Of a stretch of DNA of 36,984 nucleotides, positions 320 through 8,542 are shown piece by piece. Below the pieces are notes generated by a model that ran no database searches, was not told the DNA's origin, and saw only the letters and a list, made by a program, of their open reading frames with translations. Source of the DNA: a virus; the IMG/VR virus record IMGVR_UViG_3300010036_000002, positions 1 to 36,984 of that record. The stretch is one strand, 5' to 3'. The position numbers were made by a program, and so were the translations under genes. Position 1 is the first letter of the stretch; every line of letters starts with the position of its first letter.

Positions 320-344
320 GGTTGCTTAGAGTATTTTTAGTAAG

Positions 345-430
345 CAGATGATGTAGGATTCGAACCTACGTGGGCAATTACTCCCTCTCGATTAGCAGTC
401 GAGTGCTTTAGGCCGCTCAGCCAATCACCT
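345..430 (-). tRNA. tRNA-Ser(GCU)
   Basis: A class II tRNA with a long variable arm. The 7-bp acceptor is AGGTGAT with ATCATCT (one G-U). The anticodon stem is CTCGA/TCGAG around loop CTGCTAA, giving anticodon GCU. The T-arm is GTAGG/CCTAC with a canonical TTCGAAT loop. The discriminator is G and CCA is not encoded. It is the last tRNA of the island in the direction of transcription, and it directly follows the stop codon of the membrane-protein gene at 431. Confidence 0.93.
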
Positions 431-655
431 TTAATCGCTATTATCTTCCGCCCGACTAGCTTGCCAAGCACTAAAATGTCCAACCATATTTGCATAGCAG
501 CTAATAAGCGCTATCCACAAGACGGACTCACTCCAGAATATCACTGTTGGTATGATTATCAAGAACCATACTACTGTTGCTACTAAATGAAACTTACGCC
601 AAGCAGCTGGATCTGCCGCTTTTGTCTTAATCCTACTGATAATTTTCATATGCAT
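431..655 (-). CDS. Small two-helix membrane protein
   Basis: A 74-residue protein. After a basic N-terminus (MHMKIISRIKTKAADPAAWRK) come two hydrophobic stretches, about residues 22-40 (HLVATVVWFLIIIPTVIFW) and 45-60 (WIALISCYANMVGHFS), then an acidic tail ending EDNSD. This predicts an inner-membrane protein with two spans. I see no motif that names a function; superinfection exclusion or a holin-like role are possible but unsupported. The start could be the ATG at 655 or the one at 650. No clear ribosome site precedes either. It lies inside the tRNA island, directly upstream of tRNA-Ser(GCU). Confidence 0.75.
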   Translation of the reverse strand: MHMKIISRIKTKAADPAAWRKFHLVATVVWFLIIIPTVIFWSESVLWIALISCYANMVGHFSAWQASRAEDNSD

Positions 656-872
656 ATATTAGCATAAAGTTGGCAACCCGATAGTAGTGCTTTTATTCTG
701 CTACCTTCCCCCGGATCCATGCGTGTTCCCTTTTGGACAGGGATGGGGATTTATAATTCAAGATTCAACTCGGGTCAAGATCGAACCTTTGCTCATTGTG
801 AGTGAGCCTTTATTTTATCTTTTTCCAGGCGGATATTTCTATCCTAGCTAAATACTCCTGGTATTTAGTTTG
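656..872 (-). other. Gene-free stretch with several hairpins
   Basis: No ORF or complete tRNA found. On the minus strand, directly after tRNA-Asp, come a perfect 8-bp hairpin CTAAATAC/GTATTTAG (loop CAGGA), then GGATA/TATCC (loop GAAA), then GCTCA/TGAGC around the seven-base loop CTCACAA, which looks like an anticodon arm (CAC, Val). Further on is TCCCT/AGGGA with loop GTCCAAA. I could not build matching acceptor and T-arms around these, so the stretch may hold decayed or non-standard tRNAs or another structured RNA. Confidence 0.45.
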
Positions 873-946
873 CGATCCTTACCGGACTCGAACCGGCGAC
901 ATTTCGCTCGACAGGCGAACGCTCTAACCAACTGAGCTAAAGGACC
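873..946 (-). tRNA. tRNA-Asp(GUC)
   Basis: A fully canonical cloverleaf of 74 bases. Acceptor GGTCCTT pairs with AAGGATC (one G-U). The D-arm is GCTC/GAGC with loop AGTTGGTTA. The anticodon stem TTCGC/GCGAA carries loop CTGTCGA, anticodon GUC. The T-arm is GCCGG/CCGGT with loop TTCGAGT. The discriminator is G, as expected for Asp, and CCA is not encoded. It serves as a good internal comparison for the unusual tRNAs beside it. Confidence 0.95.
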
Positions 947-966
947 TAGCCATCTAATATAAAACG

Positions 967-1038
967 TGCCACCTCTTGGTAACGCTCCAAGACTTCGAGG
1001 GCTTCAACCCCGCGTGCCTCTATTAACACTTAAGTGGC
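967..1038 (-). tRNA. tRNA-Phe(GAA) with non-canonical D and T loops
   Basis: A 72-base cloverleaf with every stem intact. Acceptor GCCACTT/AGGTGGC, D-stem GTGT/GCAC, anticodon stem CGGGG/CCTCG with loop TTGAAGC (anticodon GAA), four-base variable loop, T-stem CTTGG/CCAAG, discriminator A. The loops are abnormal: the D-loop is TAATAGAG with no GG pair, and the T-loop is AGCGTTA instead of the TTCRANY pattern. Position 8 is A rather than T. The same odd loops occur in tRNA-His and tRNA-Ile of this island. Standard tRNA finders may miss it. The compensated stems argue against simple decay. Confidence 0.85.
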
Positions 1039-1069
1039 CTGTATTAAATTGGAGTGTGCATTGGAAGTT

Positions 1070-1519
1070 TTAAGATTTTCCGTTAAGAACCCTATTGACA
1101 TGCTCTCTTCTGCAACCTACCTTATCAGCGATGGCTTGTTGTGTCAACCCCGAATGTCTCAATTCCCTAATCTTTTGCTTTTTAATTTCTTGACTAGACT
1201 GGTATTTAATCCTTGCCTCTTCAGCCCGACTTTGGCGTCTTTTGCCCAGCCAAGGGTATATTTCGTTTAAAAAAGCAATTGATTTTTTTGAATCAGAAAT
1301 ATACCAAGACCATGATTGTTTATGGTGGTCTGCCTGCTTGACGCATATTATTATTTGCCCACCATATTCTTTTTTCATTTTTTCTAAAACATCCAAATCG
1401 GTCATTTGAATGCATACTTTAATTGAGACGGAAGAATTACTAATGTTTATTGTGCCTTCTCCATCAAAAAGTCCTCCAGCCCAAGCATTTGTGATATCTC
1501 TATGTGTGTAATGATACAA
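1070..1519 (-). CDS. LAGLIDADG homing endonuclease with C-terminal HTH
   Basis: A 149-residue protein with one LAGLIDADG-type motif at about residues 12-24 (AWAGGLFDGEGTINI). A single motif predicts a homodimeric homing endonuclease that cuts a long, near-palindromic site. A C-terminal segment from about residue 115 (IRELRHSGLTQQAIADKVGC) looks like a helix-turn-helix, probably for DNA binding. The only in-frame start is the TTG at 1519: a TGA stop lies just upstream, no other start codon precedes the motif, and no good ribosome site is visible. It is free-standing rather than inside an intron, between tRNA-His and tRNA-Phe, which fits a selfish gene living among tRNAs. Confidence 0.88.
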   Translation of the reverse strand: MYHYTHRDITNAWAGGLFDGEGTINISNSSVSIKVCIQMTDLDVLEKMKKEYGGQIIICVKQADHHKQSWSWYISDSKKSIAFLNEIYPWLGKRRQSRAEEARIKYQSSQEIKKQKIRELRHSGLTQQAIADKVGCRREHVNRVLNGKS

Positions 1520-1534
1520 TCATATCACACTTGG

Positions 1535-1605
1535 AGGGAATGGTCGGTTACGCTCCGACTACACAGAAGTCACAGTTCTGTATGTTACTATTACACCACA
1601 AACCC
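1535..1605 (-). tRNA. tRNA-His(GUG) with non-canonical D and T loops
   Basis: A 71-base cloverleaf. D-stem GTGT/ACAT with loop AATAGTA (no GG), anticodon stem CAGAA/TTCTG with loop CTGTGAC (anticodon GUG), T-stem GTCGG/CCGAC with loop AGCGTAA. Acceptor GGGTTTG/CATTCCC has two central T-T mismatches, so this is the weakest helix. The discriminator is T, and the base before position 1 is C, so the G(-1) of tRNA-His would have to be added after transcription. The D and T loops match those of the Phe and Ile genes. Two bases separate it from tRNA-Tyr. Confidence 0.75.
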
Positions 1606-1607
1606 GG

Positions 1608-1678
1608 TGCCGCCGGGGAGATTTGAACTCCCAGAGTAGACTTTTACAGAGTCGCTCCCACATCCTACGGTCGTCGGC
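1608..1678 (-). tRNA. tRNA-Tyr(GUA), short variable loop, weak D-arm
   Basis: A 71-base candidate. Anticodon arm CGACT/AGTCT (outer pair C-T mismatched) with loop CTGTAAA gives anticodon GUA. The T-arm GGGAG/CTCCC with loop TTCAAAT is canonical. Acceptor GCCGACG/CGGCGGC has one A-G mismatch, and the discriminator is A. The D-arm region is poor, with only CC/GG pairing around GTAGGATGT. A bacterial tRNA-Tyr normally has a long variable arm, while this one has about five bases. It may be functional but unusual, or partly decayed. Confidence 0.65.
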
Positions 1679-1689
1679 TTATTAAATTG

Positions 1690-1763
1690 GGCCCAATCTC
1701 GGACTTGAACCGAGAACTTTTCCCTTACAAGGGGAATACTCTAGCCATTTGAGTTAATCGGGC
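1690..1763 (-). tRNA. tRNA-Thr(UGU)
   Basis: A canonical 74-base cloverleaf. Acceptor GCCCGAT/ATTGGGC (one G-U), D-arm ACTC/GAGT with loop AAATGGCTA, anticodon stem TTCCC/GGGAA with loop CTTGTAA (anticodon UGU), T-arm CTCGG/CCGAG with loop TTCAAGT. The discriminator is C, which is unusual for Thr, and CCA is not encoded. An ORF that overlaps this gene on the same strand is a shadow and is not annotated. Confidence 0.93.
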
Positions 1764-1884
1764 CTGGTGCATGCGCCATCCTAATTTTGGGAACCATGTA
1801 AATGTCGGATATTTCATGGAGTAGGACTTGCTTCTTATAAAGCCACAACCGACGCAACTTTATAACTCTGCCTTGCACCTGACA
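1764..1884 (-). ncRNA. Candidate structured RNA between tRNA-Ser and tRNA-Thr
   Basis: About 120 bases without an ORF or tRNA, but with a consistent nested fold. An outer 6-bp helix pairs 1766-1771 with 1874-1879 (GGTGCA/TGCACC). Inside it is a perfect 8-bp hairpin, 1835-1842 with 1858-1865 (TTATAAAG/CTTTATAA, 15-base loop). Next to that, a 5-bp helix pairs 1779-1783 with 1822-1826 (TCCTA/TAGGA) and encloses a 9-bp hairpin with one bulge (1794-1803 with 1811-1819, loop ATCCGAC on the coding strand). The pairings come from reading the bases by eye; stability was not computed. The function is unknown. Confidence 0.45.
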
Positions 1885-1969
1885 TGGCGGAGGGTGAAGG
1901 TATTGATCCCTTAGGATTGCTCCTAGCATGGCGTTCAAAACCACTTTGCAGACTTCTGCGCCACCCTCC
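1885..1969 (-). tRNA. tRNA-Ser(UGA), CCA encoded
   Basis: A class II tRNA. Perfect acceptor GGAGGGT/ACCCTCC, anticodon stem GTGGT/GCCAT with loop TTTGAAC (anticodon UGA), long variable hairpin TAGGA/TCCTA, T-stem AAGGG/CCTTC with the outer pair mismatched. Discriminator G is followed by an encoded CCA (1885-1887). The T-loop is ATCAATA, with A at position 54 instead of T. The D-loop is short and lacks GG. The same T-loop is found in tRNA-Glu(CUC). It starts one base after the stop codon of the HNH gene. Confidence 0.85.
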
Positions 1970-1970
1970 A

Positions 1971-2408
1971 TTATTTAGATCTAAATTTAATCCATTGATC
2001 TAATGTTTTTATATTGTTATTTCTTTTTATTGCTCTGGCAATGTGATGACAGTACGAACATCCCTTCGTCCCATTTTTATTAAAGTAAAATCCTACCAAC
2101 TCTAACGGATGATTTTTAACGCATTTACCGTTCACATCATACGTAAGCAACTCTTGCACTTCTTTAGCAGATTTAATCTTATGACATTCACTGCATAAAA
2201 TTTGACACTTAGCTATTTCTTCTTCTCGTCTAGCTTTAGACCACGACCAAATTCTATGCTCAGTCTTTGCTATTCGATCCACATGGTCTAACTCAAGATC
2301 TTCTTTTGAACTACACCGCACACAGCTTTTATCAAAAAAGAAATCTTCTCTACGTTTCCGTATCCATTCTTTTTGATATTCCTTTTTTCTTTCTCCATAC
2401 AGCGGCAT
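1971..2408 (-). CDS. HNH endonuclease
   Basis: A 145-residue HNH nuclease, probably a homing endonuclease. The core is CVRCSSKEDLELDHVDRI, with zinc-binding cysteine pair and catalytic His in LDHVD, followed by CQILCSECHKIKS. A second cysteine/histidine group, CSYCHH, lies near the C-terminus and may bind another zinc. I chose the ATG at 2408 (MPLYGERKKEYQ) because AGGA lies seven bases upstream. Longer readings would run through tRNA-Asn. The stop codon ends one base before tRNA-Ser(UGA), and the start is 18 bases after tRNA-Asn, so the gene is wedged exactly between two tRNAs. Confidence 0.85.
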   Translation of the reverse strand: MPLYGERKKEYQKEWIRKRREDFFFDKSCVRCSSKEDLELDHVDRIAKTEHRIWSWSKARREEEIAKCQILCSECHKIKSAKEVQELLTYDVNGKCVKNHPLELVGFYFNKNGTKGCSYCHHIARAIKRNNNIKTLDQWIKFRSK

Positions 2409-2425
2409 TACTATCCTTTGGTAAG

Positions 2426-2501
2426 CACTGGTAGCTGGAATCGAACCAACGGGGTAGCAATTTAACAGATTGCCGTTACTGCCAACAGTAACCCTACCAG
2501 T
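2426..2501 (-). tRNA. tRNA-Asn(GUU)
   Basis: A 76-base cloverleaf. Acceptor ACTGGTA/TACCAGT, D-stem GTTA/TAAC with loop CTGTTGGCAG (three further bases could pair), anticodon stem GCAAT/ATTGC with loop CTGTTAA (anticodon GUU), T-arm GTTGG/CCAGC with loop TTCGATT. The discriminator is G, as expected for Asn. Positions 8-9 are GG rather than the usual T8. CCA is not encoded. Confidence 0.92.
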
Positions 2502-2547
2502 AGAAACCCATAACACAAGGAAATGGGCCTTAAACTTAAAGCTAACA

Positions 2548-2611
2548 GGGATCATGTAGAGTAATTTCAACTCTACCGATATGTTAGAGACCGGTATAGT
2601 TTCTCCATCCC
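2548..2611 (-). ncRNA. tRNA-sized structured element with CUA loop
   Basis: Sixty-four bases bounded by GGGAT (2607-2611) and ATCCC (2548-2552) on the coding strand. Inside are two strong hairpins: TACCGGT/ATCGGTA around CTCTAACAT, and GTAGAGT/ACTCTAC around TGAAATT. The two share three bases, so not all pairs can form together. The first loop contains CTCTAAC, which looks like the anticodon loops of neighbouring tRNAs and would read UAG. There is no D-arm and no recognisable T-loop, so I call it tRNA-like only. It could equally be a decayed tRNA or a different RNA. Confidence 0.3.
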
Positions 2612-2639
2612 GGCCGCAAATTCAGCAACAAGCGCCAAC

Positions 2640-2775
2640 TTGCTAAGAAACGCTGTGTGAGCCTATATACGGGCTAGCTAGCTCACTCGTTAACTTCCTT
2701 GGCGGGAAGTCCCGTAACATTTAAGCGATGCATATCGCTACCAGTGGAGCGTCTTTCAGTCCCTTACTGGTAAAA
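2640..2775 (-). ncRNA. Candidate pseudoknotted RNA element
   Basis: No ORF. Helices seen by eye: 2657-2662 with 2681-2686 (GTGAGC/GCTCAC), 2669-2673 with 2711-2715 (ACGGG/CCCGT), 2693-2698 with 2705-2710 (ACTTCC/GGAAGT), 2725-2729 with 2734-2738 (GCGAT/ATCGC) and 2741-2745 with 2766-2770 (CCAGT/ACTGG). The second helix starts inside the loop of the first and closes beyond it, which is a pseudoknot topology. It lies just after the stop codon of the 53-residue gene and before tRNA-Asn. The function is unknown. Together with 2548-2611 this covers most of the gap 2502-2785. Confidence 0.4.
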
Positions 2776-2785
2776 CCATCCTACA

Positions 2786-2947
2786 TCAGAGCTCTATGCT
2801 TGTCAAGAAGATTCTTTCCTGCATATGCTCGTAACAGAGCATCTCATAGATTGGAATACCTTCACTAGTAATTCCTTCTAGATCATCTTCTGTTGCCAGC
2901 TCATGACAATCTTCTTCTACGCAGTATGCTTCAGCAAAATCTGACAT
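2786..2947 (-). CDS. Small acidic Cys/His protein, 53 residues
   Basis: A 53-residue protein starting MSDFAEAYCVEEDCHELATE. Its ATG overlaps the stop of the upstream gene (TAATG), with AAAGGA as ribosome site, so the two are translationally coupled. It carries CVEEDCH near the N-terminus and CYEHMQ near residue 38, a C-x4-C-H plus C-x2-H pattern that could bind one zinc. The rest is acidic. I do not recognise a family, and the function is unknown. Confidence 0.75.
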   Translation of the reverse strand: MSDFAEAYCVEEDCHELATEDDLEGITSEGIPIYEMLCYEHMQERIFLTSIEL

Positions 2948-3240
2948 TATGCATCCTTTCCGAGAGCATTATCTCTTGCCCGGCGGAGAACAACAATTAG
3001 ATCGTTAATCTGACCTCTATCTAAAAAATCAACCCAAACGCTGTCATACCCAATACCTTCTTCAACCGCACCTATTTCATTACCCTTGTAATCAAAGAAT
3101 TTTGCATAGGCGATTTCATCGTCTTGTTTTGGATCAAACTTAATACCTACTTGAACCTGTCCATCTTTAACCCACTGAACGGCTACAAGATTCTGCGTAT
3201 TTCTATTTCCATAAATAATTTCTTTAGGCATAAACGCCAC
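2947..3240 (-). CDS. Conserved-looking small hypothetical protein
   Basis: A 97-residue protein, MAFMPKEIIYGNRNTQNLVA onward. It looks like a small beta-rich fold (VQWVKDGQVQVGIKF) followed by a C-terminal helix (RGQINDLIVVLRRARDNALG). This C-terminal RDQIN..LRRARD pattern is one I associate with small early proteins of actinobacterial phages, but no activity is known to me. GGAG lies just before the ATG at 3240. It is coupled to the downstream 53-residue gene by a TAATG overlap. Confidence 0.75.
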   Translation of the reverse strand: MAFMPKEIIYGNRNTQNLVAVQWVKDGQVQVGIKFDPKQDDEIAYAKFFDYKGNEIGAVEEGIGYDSVWVDFLDRGQINDLIVVLRRARDNALGKDA

Positions 3241-3302
3241 TACTCCATCTCGGATAGTTTATCGACTACTCAGTCGTACTGCTTACCTATAAAAGGTAGT
3301 CT

Positions 3303-3530
3303 TTAAATTCTGAAGGGATTATTGTTTTTAGCCTCTTCGGGATCAACTTCGTACCAGTCATCCAATGCATATCCTGGATATCTATCACCAATAAGCTCGC
3401 CAAAAAACTCATCAGCATCGTCTTCTATAGCCTCATTGATATCAGCTTCATTCTCATCACCAACAATAAGGAACTCTACATATCTTTTAGTTGATTCTGG
3501 AACAAGTTCAAATCTATATGCTTTAGCCAT
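3303..3530 (-). CDS. Small acidic hypothetical protein
   Basis: A 75-residue, strongly acidic protein (MAKAYRFELVPESTKRYVEF, then a run rich in Asp and Glu). AAAGGAT lies five bases before the ATG, which supports the start. The central part (DENEADINEAIEDDADEFFG) is probably helical. The acidity could point to DNA mimicry or a binding partner, but nothing in the sequence shows this. It begins just after tRNA-Ile(UAU) in transcription order. Confidence 0.75.
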   Translation of the reverse strand: MAKAYRFELVPESTKRYVEFLIVGDENEADINEAIEDDADEFFGELIGDRYPGYALDDWYEVDPEEAKNNNPFRI

Positions 3531-3555
3531 TTTTATCCTTTCAATGATTTTGAAG

Positions 3556-3629
3556 TACCCCGTGCAGGTAATGCTCCTGCTGTCTCCAACTTATAAGGGT
3601 GGCGCATGTACTATTTATGCTCCCGGGGC
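3556..3629 (-). tRNA. tRNA-Ile(UAU) with non-canonical D and T loops
   Basis: A 74-base cloverleaf. Acceptor GCCCCGG/ACGGGGT (innermost pair G-A), perfect D-stem GCAT/ATGC with loop AAATAGTAC, anticodon stem CCACC/GTTGG (one C-T mismatch) with loop CTTATAA (anticodon UAU), perfect T-stem GCAGG/CCTGC with loop AGCATTA, discriminator A. The D-loop has no GG and the T-loop has no TTC, exactly as in the Phe and His genes. It follows tRNA-Met with almost no gap. Confidence 0.8.
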
Positions 3630-3630
3630 T

Positions 3631-3703
3631 TGGGGGCGGAGCCGGGATCGAACCGGATCGCATGGGAATGAACCATGTATTCTTCCATTTAAACTACTCC
3701 GCA
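3631..3703 (-). tRNA. tRNA with CAU anticodon (Met or Ile2), CCA encoded
   Basis: Anticodon stem CATGG/CCATG with loop TTCATTC gives CAU. The T-loop is canonical TTCGATC, but the T-stem has only four sure pairs (CCGG/CCGG). D-stem GTTT/GAAT uses two wobble pairs. Acceptor TGCGGAG/CTCCGCC has a mismatch at the first pair. The discriminator is C, followed by an encoded CCA at 3631-3633. A CAU anticodon may be elongator Met or a lysidine-modified Ile tRNA, which the sequence alone does not settle. Confidence 0.8.
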
Positions 3704-3705
3704 AG

Positions 3706-3773
3706 CGCCAGTGTCAGTAATCGAAACCGATTCAAGGACTTTGGAGATCCTATTGCTACCCTAGCTCACTGAC
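3706..3773 (-). tRNA. tRNA-Trp(CCA) with reduced D-arm
   Basis: Sixty-eight bases. Acceptor GTCAGTG/CACTGGC, anticodon stem AGGAT/GTCCT with loop CTCCAAA (anticodon CCA), T-stem TCGGT/ACTGA with canonical loop TTCGATT, discriminator G as expected for Trp. The D-region is only about 13 bases. It can form GCTA/TAGC with a three-base GGG loop, or almost no D-stem, and so is clearly shorter than normal. All other helices are intact. Confidence 0.78.
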
Positions 3774-3913
3774 TTATGTTCCCCGGCGGCAGGAACTATT
3801 ACGCCCGAAACCTTCTAGATGATTTTAAGAAGGCTGAATAAATCAACTAAGGAGAGTGCAATCCCCCTGCTCAAGCTGCCACTTGAGCTCGTGCGGTTCT
3901 TCGACGAAACGCG
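3774..3913 (-). other. Gene-free stretch with tRNA-like arms
   Basis: No ORF. On the coding strand, GCTC/GAGC with a GG-containing loop is followed by GGGGG/TCTCC around the loop ATTGCAC, which looks like a D-arm plus an anticodon arm for Ala(UGC). I cannot find a matching acceptor or a convincing T-arm. Downstream are the hairpins CCTTCT/AGAAGG (11-base loop) and GTTCC/GGAAC. Possible readings are a decayed tRNA-Ala or a non-standard RNA. Confidence 0.4.
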
Positions 3914-3985
3914 TACTGCGGACGGGAATCGGACCCGCGCGGCCAGGAGTGAAAATCCTGATTGCAAACCAGCATGCACCGCAGC
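3914..3985 (-). tRNA. tRNA-Glu(UUC)
   Basis: Seventy-two bases. Acceptor GCTGCGG/CCGCAGT, anticodon stem CAGGA/TCCTG with loop TTTTCAC (anticodon UUC), T-stem GCGGG/CCCGT with loop TCCGATT, where the usual second T is C. The D-loop keeps GG. The discriminator is A. Its first base directly follows the last base of the HNH stop codon, so 5' maturation would cut exactly at the end of that gene. Confidence 0.88.
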
Positions 3986-4630
3986 TCAAATACTATTGTT
4001 TCTTCTGTTGCCAATTCCTGGCCTTCTGCCAGAAATATTTCCTACATTTAACGCACCAAAAGTTGAAGTTAGTGTGTGGCAATTGTAGCAGAGTACTACT
4101 AGATTGTCACGACTGTTATTTTTCCAGTTTCCATCAATATGATCAATGGTCAAAATTGGCCTACCAAGTAACTCATTAGGTTCACACCAACCACATTTTG
4201 TGCATTTATTTTCTGCTTCGTTTAACATATAATTTCTAGCCCATGAAGTTAAATTTCCACTTACCGTAGTAGCTGTTATTTCTTCTTTGAGCCATTTCTC
4301 TACTACAGAGAATTTTTTATGAGCGCCAGAACAAATATATGAACAGTATTTTTTTTGGTTAGAATTCAAAGGTTTATTACAGTTTAAACAATCAGATATC
4401 TCTCTATTTTTACGTTTAGCTTTTGGATTATTAAATGTTGCTGCGTGCGATTTACTACAAAACTTAGCACGCTTATCTCTAGCTAAAAACACAATTCCAC
4501 ATTGAGGGCAGGTTTTTTCAAACCTTCCTCTTTTGTAGGCAGAACGACCTCTACAAAGCTCGCTACAGTATACTGCATTCGGCATATACGAACTAAAACC
4601 TTTAGTGCATTCTAAGCATATGAGTTCCAT
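3986..4630 (-). CDS. HNH endonuclease with N-terminal zinc ribbons
   Basis: A 214-residue protein. The N-terminal half holds three similar zinc modules of CxxC...CSxxC/H type (about residues 4-28, 40-63 and 80-99; for example CLECTKGF then YCSELC). The C-terminal half is an HNH domain: CTKCGWCEP, LTIDHIDGNWKNNSRDN with the catalytic His, then LVVLCYNCH. The fold predicts a metal-dependent nuclease, probably a homing endonuclease that targets a nearby tRNA or spacer site. The ATG at 4630 has no strong ribosome site. The stop abuts tRNA-Glu(UUC). The zinc modules resemble the protein at 13130-13447. Confidence 0.87.
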   Translation of the reverse strand: MELICLECTKGFSSYMPNAVYCSELCRGRSAYKRGRFEKTCPQCGIVFLARDKRAKFCSKSHAATFNNPKAKRKNREISDCLNCNKPLNSNQKKYCSYICSGAHKKFSVVEKWLKEEITATTVSGNLTSWARNYMLNEAENKCTKCGWCEPNELLGRPILTIDHIDGNWKNNSRDNLVVLCYNCHTLTSTFGALNVGNISGRRPGIGNRRNNSI

Positions 4631-4692
4631 GTTGTATGGAATGATACACTACACGGAGTTTTATGTCAAAGACAATTTTCAGTACACTTACG

Positions 4693-4763
4693 TATTCCTG
4701 GAGAGTATTGATCTCTCACTTAGACATTGAGAATGTCTTGTGCTGCCTTTACACCACAGGAAC
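4693..4763 (-). tRNA. tRNA-Glu(CUC)
   Basis: Seventy-one bases. Acceptor GTTCCTG/CAGGAAT, D-stem GTGT/GCAC with loop AAAGGCA (GG kept), perfect anticodon stem AGACA/TGTCT with loop TTCTCAA (anticodon CUC), perfect T-stem GAGAG/CTCTC with loop ATCAATA, discriminator A. The T-loop has A at position 54 as in tRNA-Ser(UGA). It is the first tRNA of the island in transcription order and gives the phage both Glu isoacceptors. Confidence 0.88.
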
Positions 4764-6278: not shown

Positions 6279-6758
6279 TTAGCCTACAACTTTATCCCGG
6301 CGCTCAATAAAACCTATGCAGCATAACCAGCACCAATTTCTACCAGAATGCTCACAATTCTTAGGCTTCTTCTTGTACGCTGCCGGATATTTCTGTGGCT
6401 GAGGACCAGTACCACAATCAGAACAAACCTCACCAATCAAGAGAATACGACCTGAGATACAGGTTTCACACACCGTAGGTCTAGGAAGCTTGATCTGTCT
6501 AGTTCTACGTGAAGGAAGTGTTCCATCAGCATTAGGAACCAAGTTTCCCTTCTTATTATTACACTCCTGATGCATAAGCCTGAAATTATCAAAAGAATTA
6601 TCTTGAAATACAGACCAGGGTAGCCAATGATCTACTGTGGGCTTGTCTAGCTTAGTAAATGGCTTAGAGCAACCAGGATAGGCACATCTATTTCCGTCGC
6701 GCTTAATTAGATCGCTAACGATCTTCTCACGTACGTCTCTATTCATCTTAGGAGCCAT
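6279..6758 (-). CDS. HNH endonuclease next to the large terminase
   Basis: A 159-residue protein. The HNH core is CAYPGCSKPF (about residues 25-34), then TVDHWLPWSVF with the catalytic His, then NFRLMHQECNNKKGN. A C-terminal cysteine-rich part (CETCISG, CSDCG, CEHSG, WCWLCC) probably binds additional zinc. HNH nucleases beside terminase genes are known to assist packaging-end cleavage in some phages, so that role is possible; a homing nuclease is the alternative. I use the ATG at 6758, which overlaps the terminase stop (TGATG). The GTG at 6761 is also possible. Confidence 0.85.
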   Translation of the reverse strand: MAPKMNRDVREKIVSDLIKRDGNRCAYPGCSKPFTKLDKPTVDHWLPWSVFQDNSFDNFRLMHQECNNKKGNLVPNADGTLPSRRTRQIKLPRPTVCETCISGRILLIGEVCSDCGTGPQPQKYPAAYKKKPKNCEHSGRNWCWLCCIGFIERRDKVVG

Positions 6759-8542
6759 CACAGTAATCGTATATTTTCTAGAAACTCTTCCATGCCAGAA
6801 GGCATAGTTACCTTATTAGGTGGGTTGATGGGCTTAGCACCAGGGTTAACGAAAACATCATTTCTAGTTCTTCTAATATCATCATAAGTGAGAATATCCA
6901 TATCCTCATCTGGTCTTGGAGTAAGCGCACCTGCATTGAAAATAGCGCCGCAAACAGCGTCTGAGAGGTCATTACCAGTACGACCAGGGTGATCTACCTT
7001 ACCCTTATCATTAATAATTAGTGTCTTAAGCTCTTTTTTAAGAAGCTCAGAATCTGGACCTAGCAATCTATTCTCTCCCATCGTTAATGCAAACTCGCTG
7101 TAGTGATCTCTACCTACCGAGAGCTTCTCTGCTCTGATTCCAATATCGTTAAGCATACCAATGATCTGCTCAGAATTCCAGCGGTCAAATGTTACTAAGC
7201 GAATATCGAAGCCAGCACGTCTTAGTGAAACAATAAACTCTCTAATGTCAGAGAAATCTAGAGCTCTATCCTTACCTGGCTTCCAGTAACGAACTAGATC
7301 AACAACAATATTAGGAACAGGTTCTCTTGTAATGCCACCAATCTGAGGAATAACATACTTATCTACGTGTGCCATAGCTACAGCTGCATTGTCTTGTACG
7401 AGCGCAAGGTCAACATGGATATAGTACTGCACTTCATCCTTGGGTTTTATGATAATACTTCCGTCTTCAGCAACACCATTCTGTGTGGTAAAAGTTGCAT
7501 CAATCTTAGCTTTATCTTTGTACCAATCATTAAATCCGTTTGTGTCTTGTGGACATGCGGCAAATCTTCCTAGAGCATCAGCAGGATCGGCATAGAAGTC
7601 CATCATAAAGTTATCAATAGTCTTTGTAGGATTAACCTTCCAGGTAGGACAACGTAGAGCCCATACGTTAGCAAACCTATAGTTAATTATCTCATCTTCT
7701 TCCCATTCCACTGTAAATTCGTTTCCCTCCGTTCCCGGCGGAAATTCAGGATTAAGAATAAAAGTATGACTCTGTTTTGTAACTACCTTCTCAGCTACAT
7801 ACTCATTATATTTTGTCATAATGTAGCCGTCAGGTTTACGTGGGAAGGAAAGAACAAGAACCTTACCATTCTTATCAAAACGAGAAGAGACAGTACCCGT
7901 TAGAGTCTTATGCATCTTCTTTGCATTCTCAGTAGTATCGCCCTCATCAAATGAATCTAGCTCATCAAGTACAGCAACAAGAATGTTAAGACCCTCGGTG
8001 CCTTCATTCTCTGAGTTAAGACTATGAATACGGATATTCTTATCAAATTCAATATCGCCTGCGCGAGGTTTGTACTTACCATTAAACCATCTACAGTATC
8101 TAATACGAGTCTTGAGACCAGCGAAAAATACATTGTTTGCCTGTTTTGCATTCTTTGCTACGTTAACAATATCAATATGATCGCCACTTGGTTTTCCATA
8201 GTAGCTGGCTGGGTCTCTAAGACATAGTAGAAGGTACACGATGCGGCAACAGATAATTTCCGACATCAAGTCCTTGCCGCTACCTTTACCAAGCAAGAAG
8301 AATAATTCCTTCTTATTTCGGCTATCGATTACCGCAGCCTCTGTTTCGCCATACAGATCTTGCCATGTTTCTTTGCGAAGAACATTGCTGCCAAGAGCGA
8401 CGATATCTTCTTGAATATCGCTTAGAATAGGCAAGCCCATGAAGTCTTTGCTATATAAGAATGTTTTTAGATCTACAGGTTTTTCTTCCCATACATCCTC
8501 ATCTTCTAGTGCGCCAAGAAAATCAGCCCAATCAGTTGCCAA
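6758..8542 (-). CDS. terL: Terminase large subunit
   Basis: A 594-residue packaging motor that pumps DNA into the prohead and cuts it. N-terminal ATPase: Walker A GKGSGKD at 85-91, Walker B ILVAVLDELD at about 187-196 with the catalytic Glu. C-terminal RNase H-like nuclease: first acidic site HVDLALVQD (Asp378), second in VTFDRWN (Asp453), third in GNDLSDAV (Asp525/528). The length is normal for the family. The start is a TTG at 8542 that overlaps the end of the putative small-subunit gene by 11 bases. An HNH nuclease follows. The gene lies downstream of the replication block rather than with the tail genes. Confidence 0.93.
   Translation of the reverse strand: MATDWADFLGALEDEDVWEEKPVDLKTFLYSKDFMGLPILSDIQEDIVALGSNVLRKETWQDLYGETEAAVIDSRNKKELFFLLGKGSGKDLMSEIICCRIVYLLLCLRDPASYYGKPSGDHIDIVNVAKNAKQANNVFFAGLKTRIRYCRWFNGKYKPRAGDIEFDKNIRIHSLNSENEGTEGLNILVAVLDELDSFDEGDTTENAKKMHKTLTGTVSSRFDKNGKVLVLSFPRKPDGYIMTKYNEYVAEKVVTKQSHTFILNPEFPPGTEGNEFTVEWEEDEIINYRFANVWALRCPTWKVNPTKTIDNFMMDFYADPADALGRFAACPQDTNGFNDWYKDKAKIDATFTTQNGVAEDGSIIIKPKDEVQYYIHVDLALVQDNAAVAMAHVDKYVIPQIGGITREPVPNIVVDLVRYWKPGKDRALDFSDIREFIVSLRRAGFDIRLVTFDRWNSEQIIGMLNDIGIRAEKLSVGRDHYSEFALTMGENRLLGPDSELLKKELKTLIINDKGKVDHPGRTGNDLSDAVCGAIFNAGALTPRPDEDMDILTYDDIRRTRNDVFVNPGAKPINPPNKVTMPSGMEEFLENIRLL

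Follow-up and report, generated by a model that had tools for sequence, protein, structure and literature searches.

Three tRNA genes of a viral tRNA island have an altered elbow

We analysed a 36,984-base fragment of virus record IMGVR_UViG_3300010036_000002, referred to here as the window, in which about a dozen tRNA genes are clustered as an island on the minus strand (344-4763; Table 1). Three of these genes, encoding tRNA-Phe(GAA), tRNA-His(GTG) and tRNA-Ile(TAT) and referred to below as the trio, depart from ordinary tRNAs in the elbow formed by the D-loop and T-loop. A first-pass annotation had reported D-loops containing AATAG and T-loops of the form AGCRTWA in all three, and ARAGORN, Rfam and direct reading of the loops confirmed the genes and their positions and placed all three on the minus strand. 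ARAGORN calls tRNA-Phe and tRNA-His and misses tRNA-Ile. Rfam reports tRNA-His (40.8 bits) and tRNA-Ile (30.3 bits), both above the 29-bit gathering threshold of RF00005, and leaves tRNA-Phe unreported.

In the ordinary elbow, G19-C56 forms a flat face that is read by the ribosome and many other partners, and G18-Psi55 and U54-A58 are conserved internal contacts (PMC4810234, PMC7912444). G18-Psi55 is described as a standard internal contact, and the pseudouridine at 55 (Psi55) as universally conserved (PMC4810234). In the trio, AATAG reads as A14-A15-U-A18-G19 and AGCRTWA as A54-G55-C56-R57-U58. An ordinary AATGGTA D-loop is turned into AATAGTA by a change of G18 to A with G19 retained, and a TTCRANN T-loop is turned into AGCRTWA by changes of U54 to A, U55 to G and A58 to U with C56 retained. 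All three genes have A:G at 18:55 in place of the canonical G:U and A:U at 54:58 in place of U:A; G19 and C56 are present, and G18-U55 and U54-A58 are absent. Of the two contacts that the first-pass annotation named as fixing the normal elbow, only G18-Psi55 is replaced, and G19-C56 is kept; the other replaced pair is 54:58. Position 55 is not a U, and neither is position 54 in this A54 subtype, so Psi55 and 5-methyluridine at 54 (m5U54, also T54) cannot form, and the loss of both modifications follows from the bases themselves.

Each gene folds into a four-stem cloverleaf of standard lengths, with an anticodon loop of seven bases, U33 and a purine at 37 (for tRNA-Ile read from the Rfam alignment). 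The stems had been described as intact, which is true of tRNA-Phe, with no mismatch in a scan blind to loop sequence, but not of tRNA-His or tRNA-Ile, with two mismatches each. In tRNA-His these are U.U at 4:69 and 5:68 of the acceptor stem; tRNA-Ile has G7.A66 and one anticodon-stem mismatch, as well as a G at 8. The tRNA-Phe has A8/U14 replacing U8/A14, a combination that was seen in 40 of the 894 tRNAs described below and is possibly a further swapped tertiary pair. The loose D/T motif is uninformative by itself, with 0.73 chance occurrences expected per window, and its significance rests on the cloverleaf context and on wider collections.

Positions 18 and 55 switch together in a widespread class of tRNAs

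Across 894 tRNAs from which pattern-chosen genes had been removed, U55 occurred with GG at positions 18 and 19 in 547 and with AG in 5, and G55 occurred with GG in 1 and with AG in 230. Ambiguous AGG cases in the same set numbered 69 with U55 and 8 with G55. Mutual information was 0.659 bits for 18:55, compared to a shuffle maximum of 0.009, and 0.741 for 54:58. The latter pair varies separately, occurring as UA, GG, AU and CA in both 18:55 classes, and AATAG/AGCRTWA is one among several subtypes of a wider A18:G55 class, whose members are called alternative here. The tRNAs were collected with a cloverleaf scanner based on stem pairing, spacing and U33, with no use of D-loop or T-loop sequence, which gave 2 matches in 335 kilobases (kb) of shuffled sequence. 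General tRNA models assign scores to tRNAs of either elbow type, and this scanner tells the two types apart better.

The rare combinations C18 with G55 and G18 with C55 fit a direct 18:55 pair and strengthen the case for it. In otherwise good cloverleaves, C18/G55 was read on contigs L157, L173, L078, L079, L089 and L230, and G18/C55 on L234, L102, L036, L065 and L410. Two further tRNAs have a base other than C at 56, namely a tRNA-Cys of Pseudomonas phage XD2 (L304, 3820; D-loop GAGCGTCTTA, T-loop TTAAACT) and a tRNA-His on contig L163 (5751; AAAAATG and GGTAGTA), which may represent a compensated change of 19:56 to U:A or A:U.

The A18:G55 class is widespread, well beyond one window. When viral contigs of IMG/VR were scanned for the D/T motif together with U33 and a purine at 37 (R37) at tRNA spacing, 111 of the 132 matches listed showed pairing in both the T stem and the anticodon stem, and 20 anticodons were represented. 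With the same motif in bacterial genomes, 114 of the 123 matches listed were consistent with a cloverleaf; those listed were mainly tRNA-His and tRNA-Thr(GGT) of SAR11 and other Alphaproteobacteria and tRNA-His of Nomurabacteria and Taylorbacteria, with Verrucomicrobiota and others as well. The class covers 40 anticodons and equals canonical tRNAs in stem quality, encoded CCA, R37 and G53-C61; a purine is found at 37 in 0.99 of its members, while U33 was a requirement of the scan. The proposal of the first-pass annotation that the two loops had co-evolved across isoacceptors is borne out by the counts (547:5 versus 1:230) and by relatives whose stems are as intact as canonical ones and whose D- and T-loops co-vary, the opposite of decaying stems with uncoupled loops.

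When pools of equal size were compared outside the loops, 242 of 298 alternative tRNAs resembled canonical tRNAs with the same anticodon more closely than alternative ones with a different anticodon, which suggests that the switch probably arose repeatedly. The same comparison ruled out a single common origin followed by anticodon swaps; pools of unequal size make alternative tRNAs with other anticodons look closer.

The only Phe and His tRNAs found in one SAR11 genome are alternative

G005, a SAR11 genome consisting of one contig of 1,199,990 bases, yielded 32 tRNAs. The sole tRNA-Phe (AGGAGTA/TGCGAAT) and the sole tRNA-His (AATAGTA/AGCGTAA) among them are alternative, as is tRNA-Val(GAC), and ARAGORN misses the tRNA-His gene. 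A partial SAR11 genome (G001) has alternative tRNA-Phe, tRNA-His and tRNA-Val(GAC), and its remaining tRNAs read as canonical. That the only tRNA-Phe and tRNA-His found in G005 are of this kind argues that the class works in translation, and its members would be transcribed, processed, charged and used by the ribosome, judging from these cellular genes.

The general pattern was matched in 18 of 40 genomes of the family of G005, with 0 matches in the reversed control. Among the tRNAs read in a Nomurabacteria genome (G082), Phe and His alone are alternative, and the AATAG/AGC form was otherwise found in none of 240 Patescibacteria genomes. Contigs C7 and C9 of G082, in which both strands gave very short tRNA-like matches (about 58 bases), are perhaps contaminating mitochondrial contigs. 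In 199 Pseudomonadota outside G005, the general D7/V5 pattern gave only apparent chance matches in coding sequence, at about the reversed-control rate. Cellular use seems confined to few clades.

The tRNA-Phe and tRNA-His genes of SAR11 lie near each other. Orthologues of tRNA-Phe, with the variable loop GTGTC, carry AGTTGGTA/TTCGAGT, AGGAGTA/TGCGAAT or AGTAGTA/TGCGATT, and the first two forms have an identical anticodon stem. Compared to close relatives, the D- and T-loop motifs of tRNA-His in another SAR11 genome (G008) differ chiefly by G18A and U55G. These orthologues suggest that the elbow switched in place in SAR11. A paper on SAR11 tRNA-His (PMC3937112) deals with its G-1 and discriminator traits.

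Dense arrays, phages and the family of the window phage

Contig L079 holds 28 tRNAs in 3.4 kb, none of which has a canonical D/T pair, and L033 and L089 are nearly so. In a Verrucomicrobiota genome (G002), all 29 chromosomal tRNAs read are canonical, whereas a dense array (L173; G002:C42:10159-13161) is almost wholly alternative and contains a PIN-domain gene (VapC-like). The array of G633 (L541) is similar, and L178 is a third dense Verrucomicrobiota array in which nearly all tRNAs are alternative. Many phage contigs, the window included, mix both elbow types.

The cultured phages examined were canonical except for one tRNA-Met and a few other departures. This tRNA-Met(CAT) of Aeromonas phage 4_4572 (L305, 3431; D-loop CACAGAGC, T-loop TGCAATA) is the only clear alternative-elbow tRNA among them and is missing from the record annotation. 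With the arrays as queries against cultured phages, the tRNAs reached were almost all canonical, so cultured phages seem to hold only a small part of the class, and blastn of each trio gene against cultured phages found no full-length relative.

The large terminase was used for placing the phage and for gathering relatives without selection on the elbow. It is 46-48% identical to terminases of Streptomyces phages of the Stanwilliamsviridae, one of which, Annadreamy, also has a large tRNA island, located after its terminase gene, and 69% identical to that of the IMG/VR relative L444. A search of IMG/VR with the single TerL protein found no relative; a search with a four-sequence terminase alignment recovered them. 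In the islands of the nearest relatives, L444 and L445, tRNA-Phe, tRNA-His and tRNA-Ile are canonical. On the sequences compared, the trio is unusual for the phage family of the window, but outside this family its class is common. Two relatives, L449 (10768) and L456 (8697), have a tRNA gene with the amber-reading anticodon CTA and an odd D-loop, AACGATT.

Within the island, the Asp, Thr and Asn tRNAs that had been called ordinary do have canonical elbows. Weak matches to homing-type endonucleases, one LAGLIDADG with a helix-turn-helix and two HNH, lie between tRNA genes.

Table 1 Features of the tRNA island and the terminase gene of the window
Feature	Position	Strand	D-loop	T-loop	Remarks
tRNA-Ser(GCT)	344..430	-		TTCGAAT	canonical elbow
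tRNA-Asp(GTC)	872..946	-	AGTTGGTTA	TTCGAGT	canonical elbow
tRNA-Phe(GAA)	967..1038	-	TAATAGAG	AGCGTTA	966-1038 in ARAGORN; CCA not encoded
Homing-type endonuclease	1070-1519	-			weak match
tRNA-His(GTG)	1532..1605	-	AATAGTA	AGCGTAA	ARAGORN position; 1535-1605 in Rfam; CCA encoded
tRNA-Tyr(GTA)-like gene	1608..1678	-	with GG	with TTC	Rfam 24.9 bits, below cut-off; anticodon read from sequence
tRNA-Thr(TGT)	1689..1763	-	AAATGGCTA	TTCAAGT	canonical elbow
tRNA-Ser(TGA)-like	~1885-1969	-		ATCAATA	long variable arm; CCA encoded; seen by eye, reported by no tool
Homing-type endonuclease	1971-2402	-			weak match
tRNA-Asn(GTT)	2425..2501	-			canonical elbow
tRNA-Ile(TAT)	3556..3629	-	AAATAGTAC	AGCATTA	CCA not encoded
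tRNA-Met(CAT)	3631..3703	-	AAATGGAA	TTCGATC	canonical elbow
tRNA-Glu(TTC)-like gene	3914..3985	-		TCCGATT	anticodon read from sequence
Homing-type endonuclease	3986-4630	-			weak match
tRNA-Glu(CTC)	4692..4763	-	GG kept	ATCAATA	54:58 is A:A; 18:55 canonical
Large terminase	6758..8542	-			used for phage placement and relatives

A probable compensated elbow and its possible causes

We consider it likely, on sequence grounds, that the trio function in translation and belong to a recurrent class of tRNAs whose elbow is compensated. The sequences of this class show G19 and C56 unchanged, while 18:55 switches jointly from G:U to A:G and 54:58 jointly from U:A to A:U, G:G or C:A. A18:G55 would still be in direct contact within the stack of the D- and T-loops, and 54:58 would still close the T-loop. 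The exposed G19-C56 face read by the ribosome, RNase P and tRNA enzymes would thereby be preserved and the tRNA kept functional, relying on unmodified alternative pairs with no Psi55 and, where 54 is A, no m5U54. The switch probably arose many times within isoacceptors. It is found above all in environmental phages and in dense tRNA arrays, and it has become fixed in tRNAs essential to the cells of SAR11 and of some Nomurabacteria and Taylorbacteria.

Several points weigh against a compensated elbow in working tRNAs. The coupling counts ignore phylogeny, the loci were mostly found via the motif, and positions 18 and 19 of the D-loop were assigned by motif. The trio is also unequal in quality, since tRNA-His and tRNA-Ile have two mismatches each and tRNA-Ile is without U8, and only 2 of 173 tRNAs were alternative in 80 loci that were chosen by terminase, with no selection on the elbow.

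As for the cause, the evidence suggests that relaxed constraint fits SAR11 and that set-wide selection on the elbow fits the uniform arrays beside canonical host sets. Under relaxed constraint, U55 drifts once a cell has lost the Psi55 synthase TruB or no longer requires Psi55 and T54, and position 18 compensates with no advantage gained; we hold this to be credible, if tentatively so. TruB was detected in 31 of 58 genomes of the SAR11 order, compared with 14 of 14 control genomes. It was absent from all 13 SAR11 genomes with an alternative tRNA-Phe and present in 5 of 12 with a canonical one (p 0.015, uncorrected). Five of seven Patescibacteria bearers also lack TruB, the other two having a sub-threshold match, and both SAR11 and Patescibacteria have reduced genomes. 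However, seven TruB-less SAR11 genomes retain a canonical tRNA-Phe, and drift would not easily produce wholly alternative arrays next to canonical host sets. TruB is present in G008 alongside the alternative tRNA-His, in another alphaproteobacterial genome with an alternative tRNA-Thr and in all tested Verrucomicrobiota, Bacteroidota and Actinomycetes bearers, and these TruB-positive bearers rule out TruB loss as a strict requirement. TruB loss is associated with the class in SAR11, and is neither sufficient nor required.

The trio itself may have been acquired by exchange from other phages or arrays and not by change in place, a real possibility although one that we would not yet favor. The three isoacceptors are canonical in L444 and L445, the stems of the window tRNA-Phe differ widely from those of these relatives, the class is rare in the phage family (2/173), and homing-endonuclease genes, identified by weak matches, are found within the island. 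On the other hand, the D-arm of the window tRNA-His (GGTGTAA...) and the anticodon loop of tRNA-Phe (TTGAAGC) resemble those of L445, and searches found no close donor and no full-length match in cultured phages.

Selection on the elbow in phages and arrays, by which a tRNA set would go unseen by host enzymes or nucleases that read the elbow, or by an effector of the element that spares its own tRNAs, strikes us as possible and rather unlikely. It would account for the 28 tRNAs of L079 without a canonical D/T pair, and for the canonical chromosome of G002 next to an alternative array with a PIN-domain gene (similarly in G633). Its logic has a precedent in phage anticodon-loop changes proposed to evade host nucleases, but that proposal is limited to anticodon loops and leaves the elbow unmentioned (PMC10264068). 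In addition, no elbow-reading nuclease was identified in this analysis, both elbow types are mixed on many phage contigs, the window among them, and cellular housekeeping tRNAs carry the alternative elbow too. Because essential cellular tRNAs have the same elbow and some bearers are TruB-positive, evasion of host defences or modification enzymes, which the first-pass annotation had raised, is unnecessary as an explanation. It is similarly doubtful that the class amounts to a second self-consistent elbow (A18:G55 with an alternative 54:58), repeatedly evolved, that gives phages and arrays complete orthogonal sets invisible to elbow-reading host factors such as modification enzymes or defence nucleases.

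Decaying pseudogenes with drifted loops are a very improbable identity for the trio, as the two stem mismatches each in tRNA-His and tRNA-Ile and the missing U8 of tRNA-Ile are set against class relatives with stems as good as canonical ones, loops that stay coupled and a SAR11 genome in which the only Phe and His tRNAs found are of this class. Elbow departures are known for some non-translational tRNAs, such as the staphylococcal cell-wall tRNA-Gly, but it is hardly believable that the trio are tRNA-shaped RNAs acting outside translation, for example as regulatory decoys, when the class has 40 anticodons, normal anticodon loops and encoded CCA and supplies the sole tRNA-Phe and tRNA-His found in one SAR11 and one Nomurabacteria genome.

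Comparison with known tRNAs

No description of A18:G55 was found in the open-access literature, the subscription literature, including older suppressor-tRNA selections, lying outside the search, and the class is apparently undescribed. A matched A18:G55 replacing G18-Psi55 in many natural tRNAs would mean that the elbow can be rebuilt with its G19-C56 face intact. Members of the class include the only Phe and His tRNAs found in abundant ocean bacteria, and the position at which it departs is taught as universal. The class provides a direct natural test of the purpose of Psi55, T54, TruB and TrmA. It also explains why annotators miss certain genes (ARAGORN the SAR11 tRNA-His and the window tRNA-Ile, Rfam the window tRNA-Phe), and it offers ready-made tRNA sets for orthogonal translation.

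With canonical tRNA (RF00005) the class shares the cloverleaf, U33, R37, G53-C61, G19, C56 and often an encoded CCA. It differs in having A:G at 18:55 and, in many members, A:U, G:G or C:A at 54:58, in having no Psi55 site and, when 54 is not U, no m5U54 site, and in that ARAGORN or Rfam misses some members. Suppressor tRNAs obtained in the Steinberg laboratory from randomised D- and T-loops reportedly show that altered 54:58 and D/T contacts are workable in Escherichia coli; these are said to be laboratory selections, whereas the class is natural and follows a fixed rule, A18:G55. The staphylococcal tRNA-Gly for the cell wall departs at the elbow in one isoacceptor with a non-translational role, whereas the class has members with 40 different anticodons, among them sole Phe and His tRNAs.

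The eukaryotic initiator tRNA resembles the class in its altered 54:58, there A54-A58, but as described it departs at 54 alone (PMC7912444), whereas in the class 55 and 18 change jointly and 54:58 covaries. Natural elbow departures are also found in metazoan mitochondrial tRNAs, many of which are without the elbow or a whole arm (PMC4810234), while the class keeps both arms and G19-C56. Finally, the phage tRNAs of van den Berg 2023 (PMC10264068) are similar in being phage-borne and in departing from loop sequences that are normally conserved. They are altered in the anticodon loop, and the paper makes no mention of the D-loop, T-loop or elbow, whereas the class described here is altered in the D- and T-loops and is cellular as well as viral.

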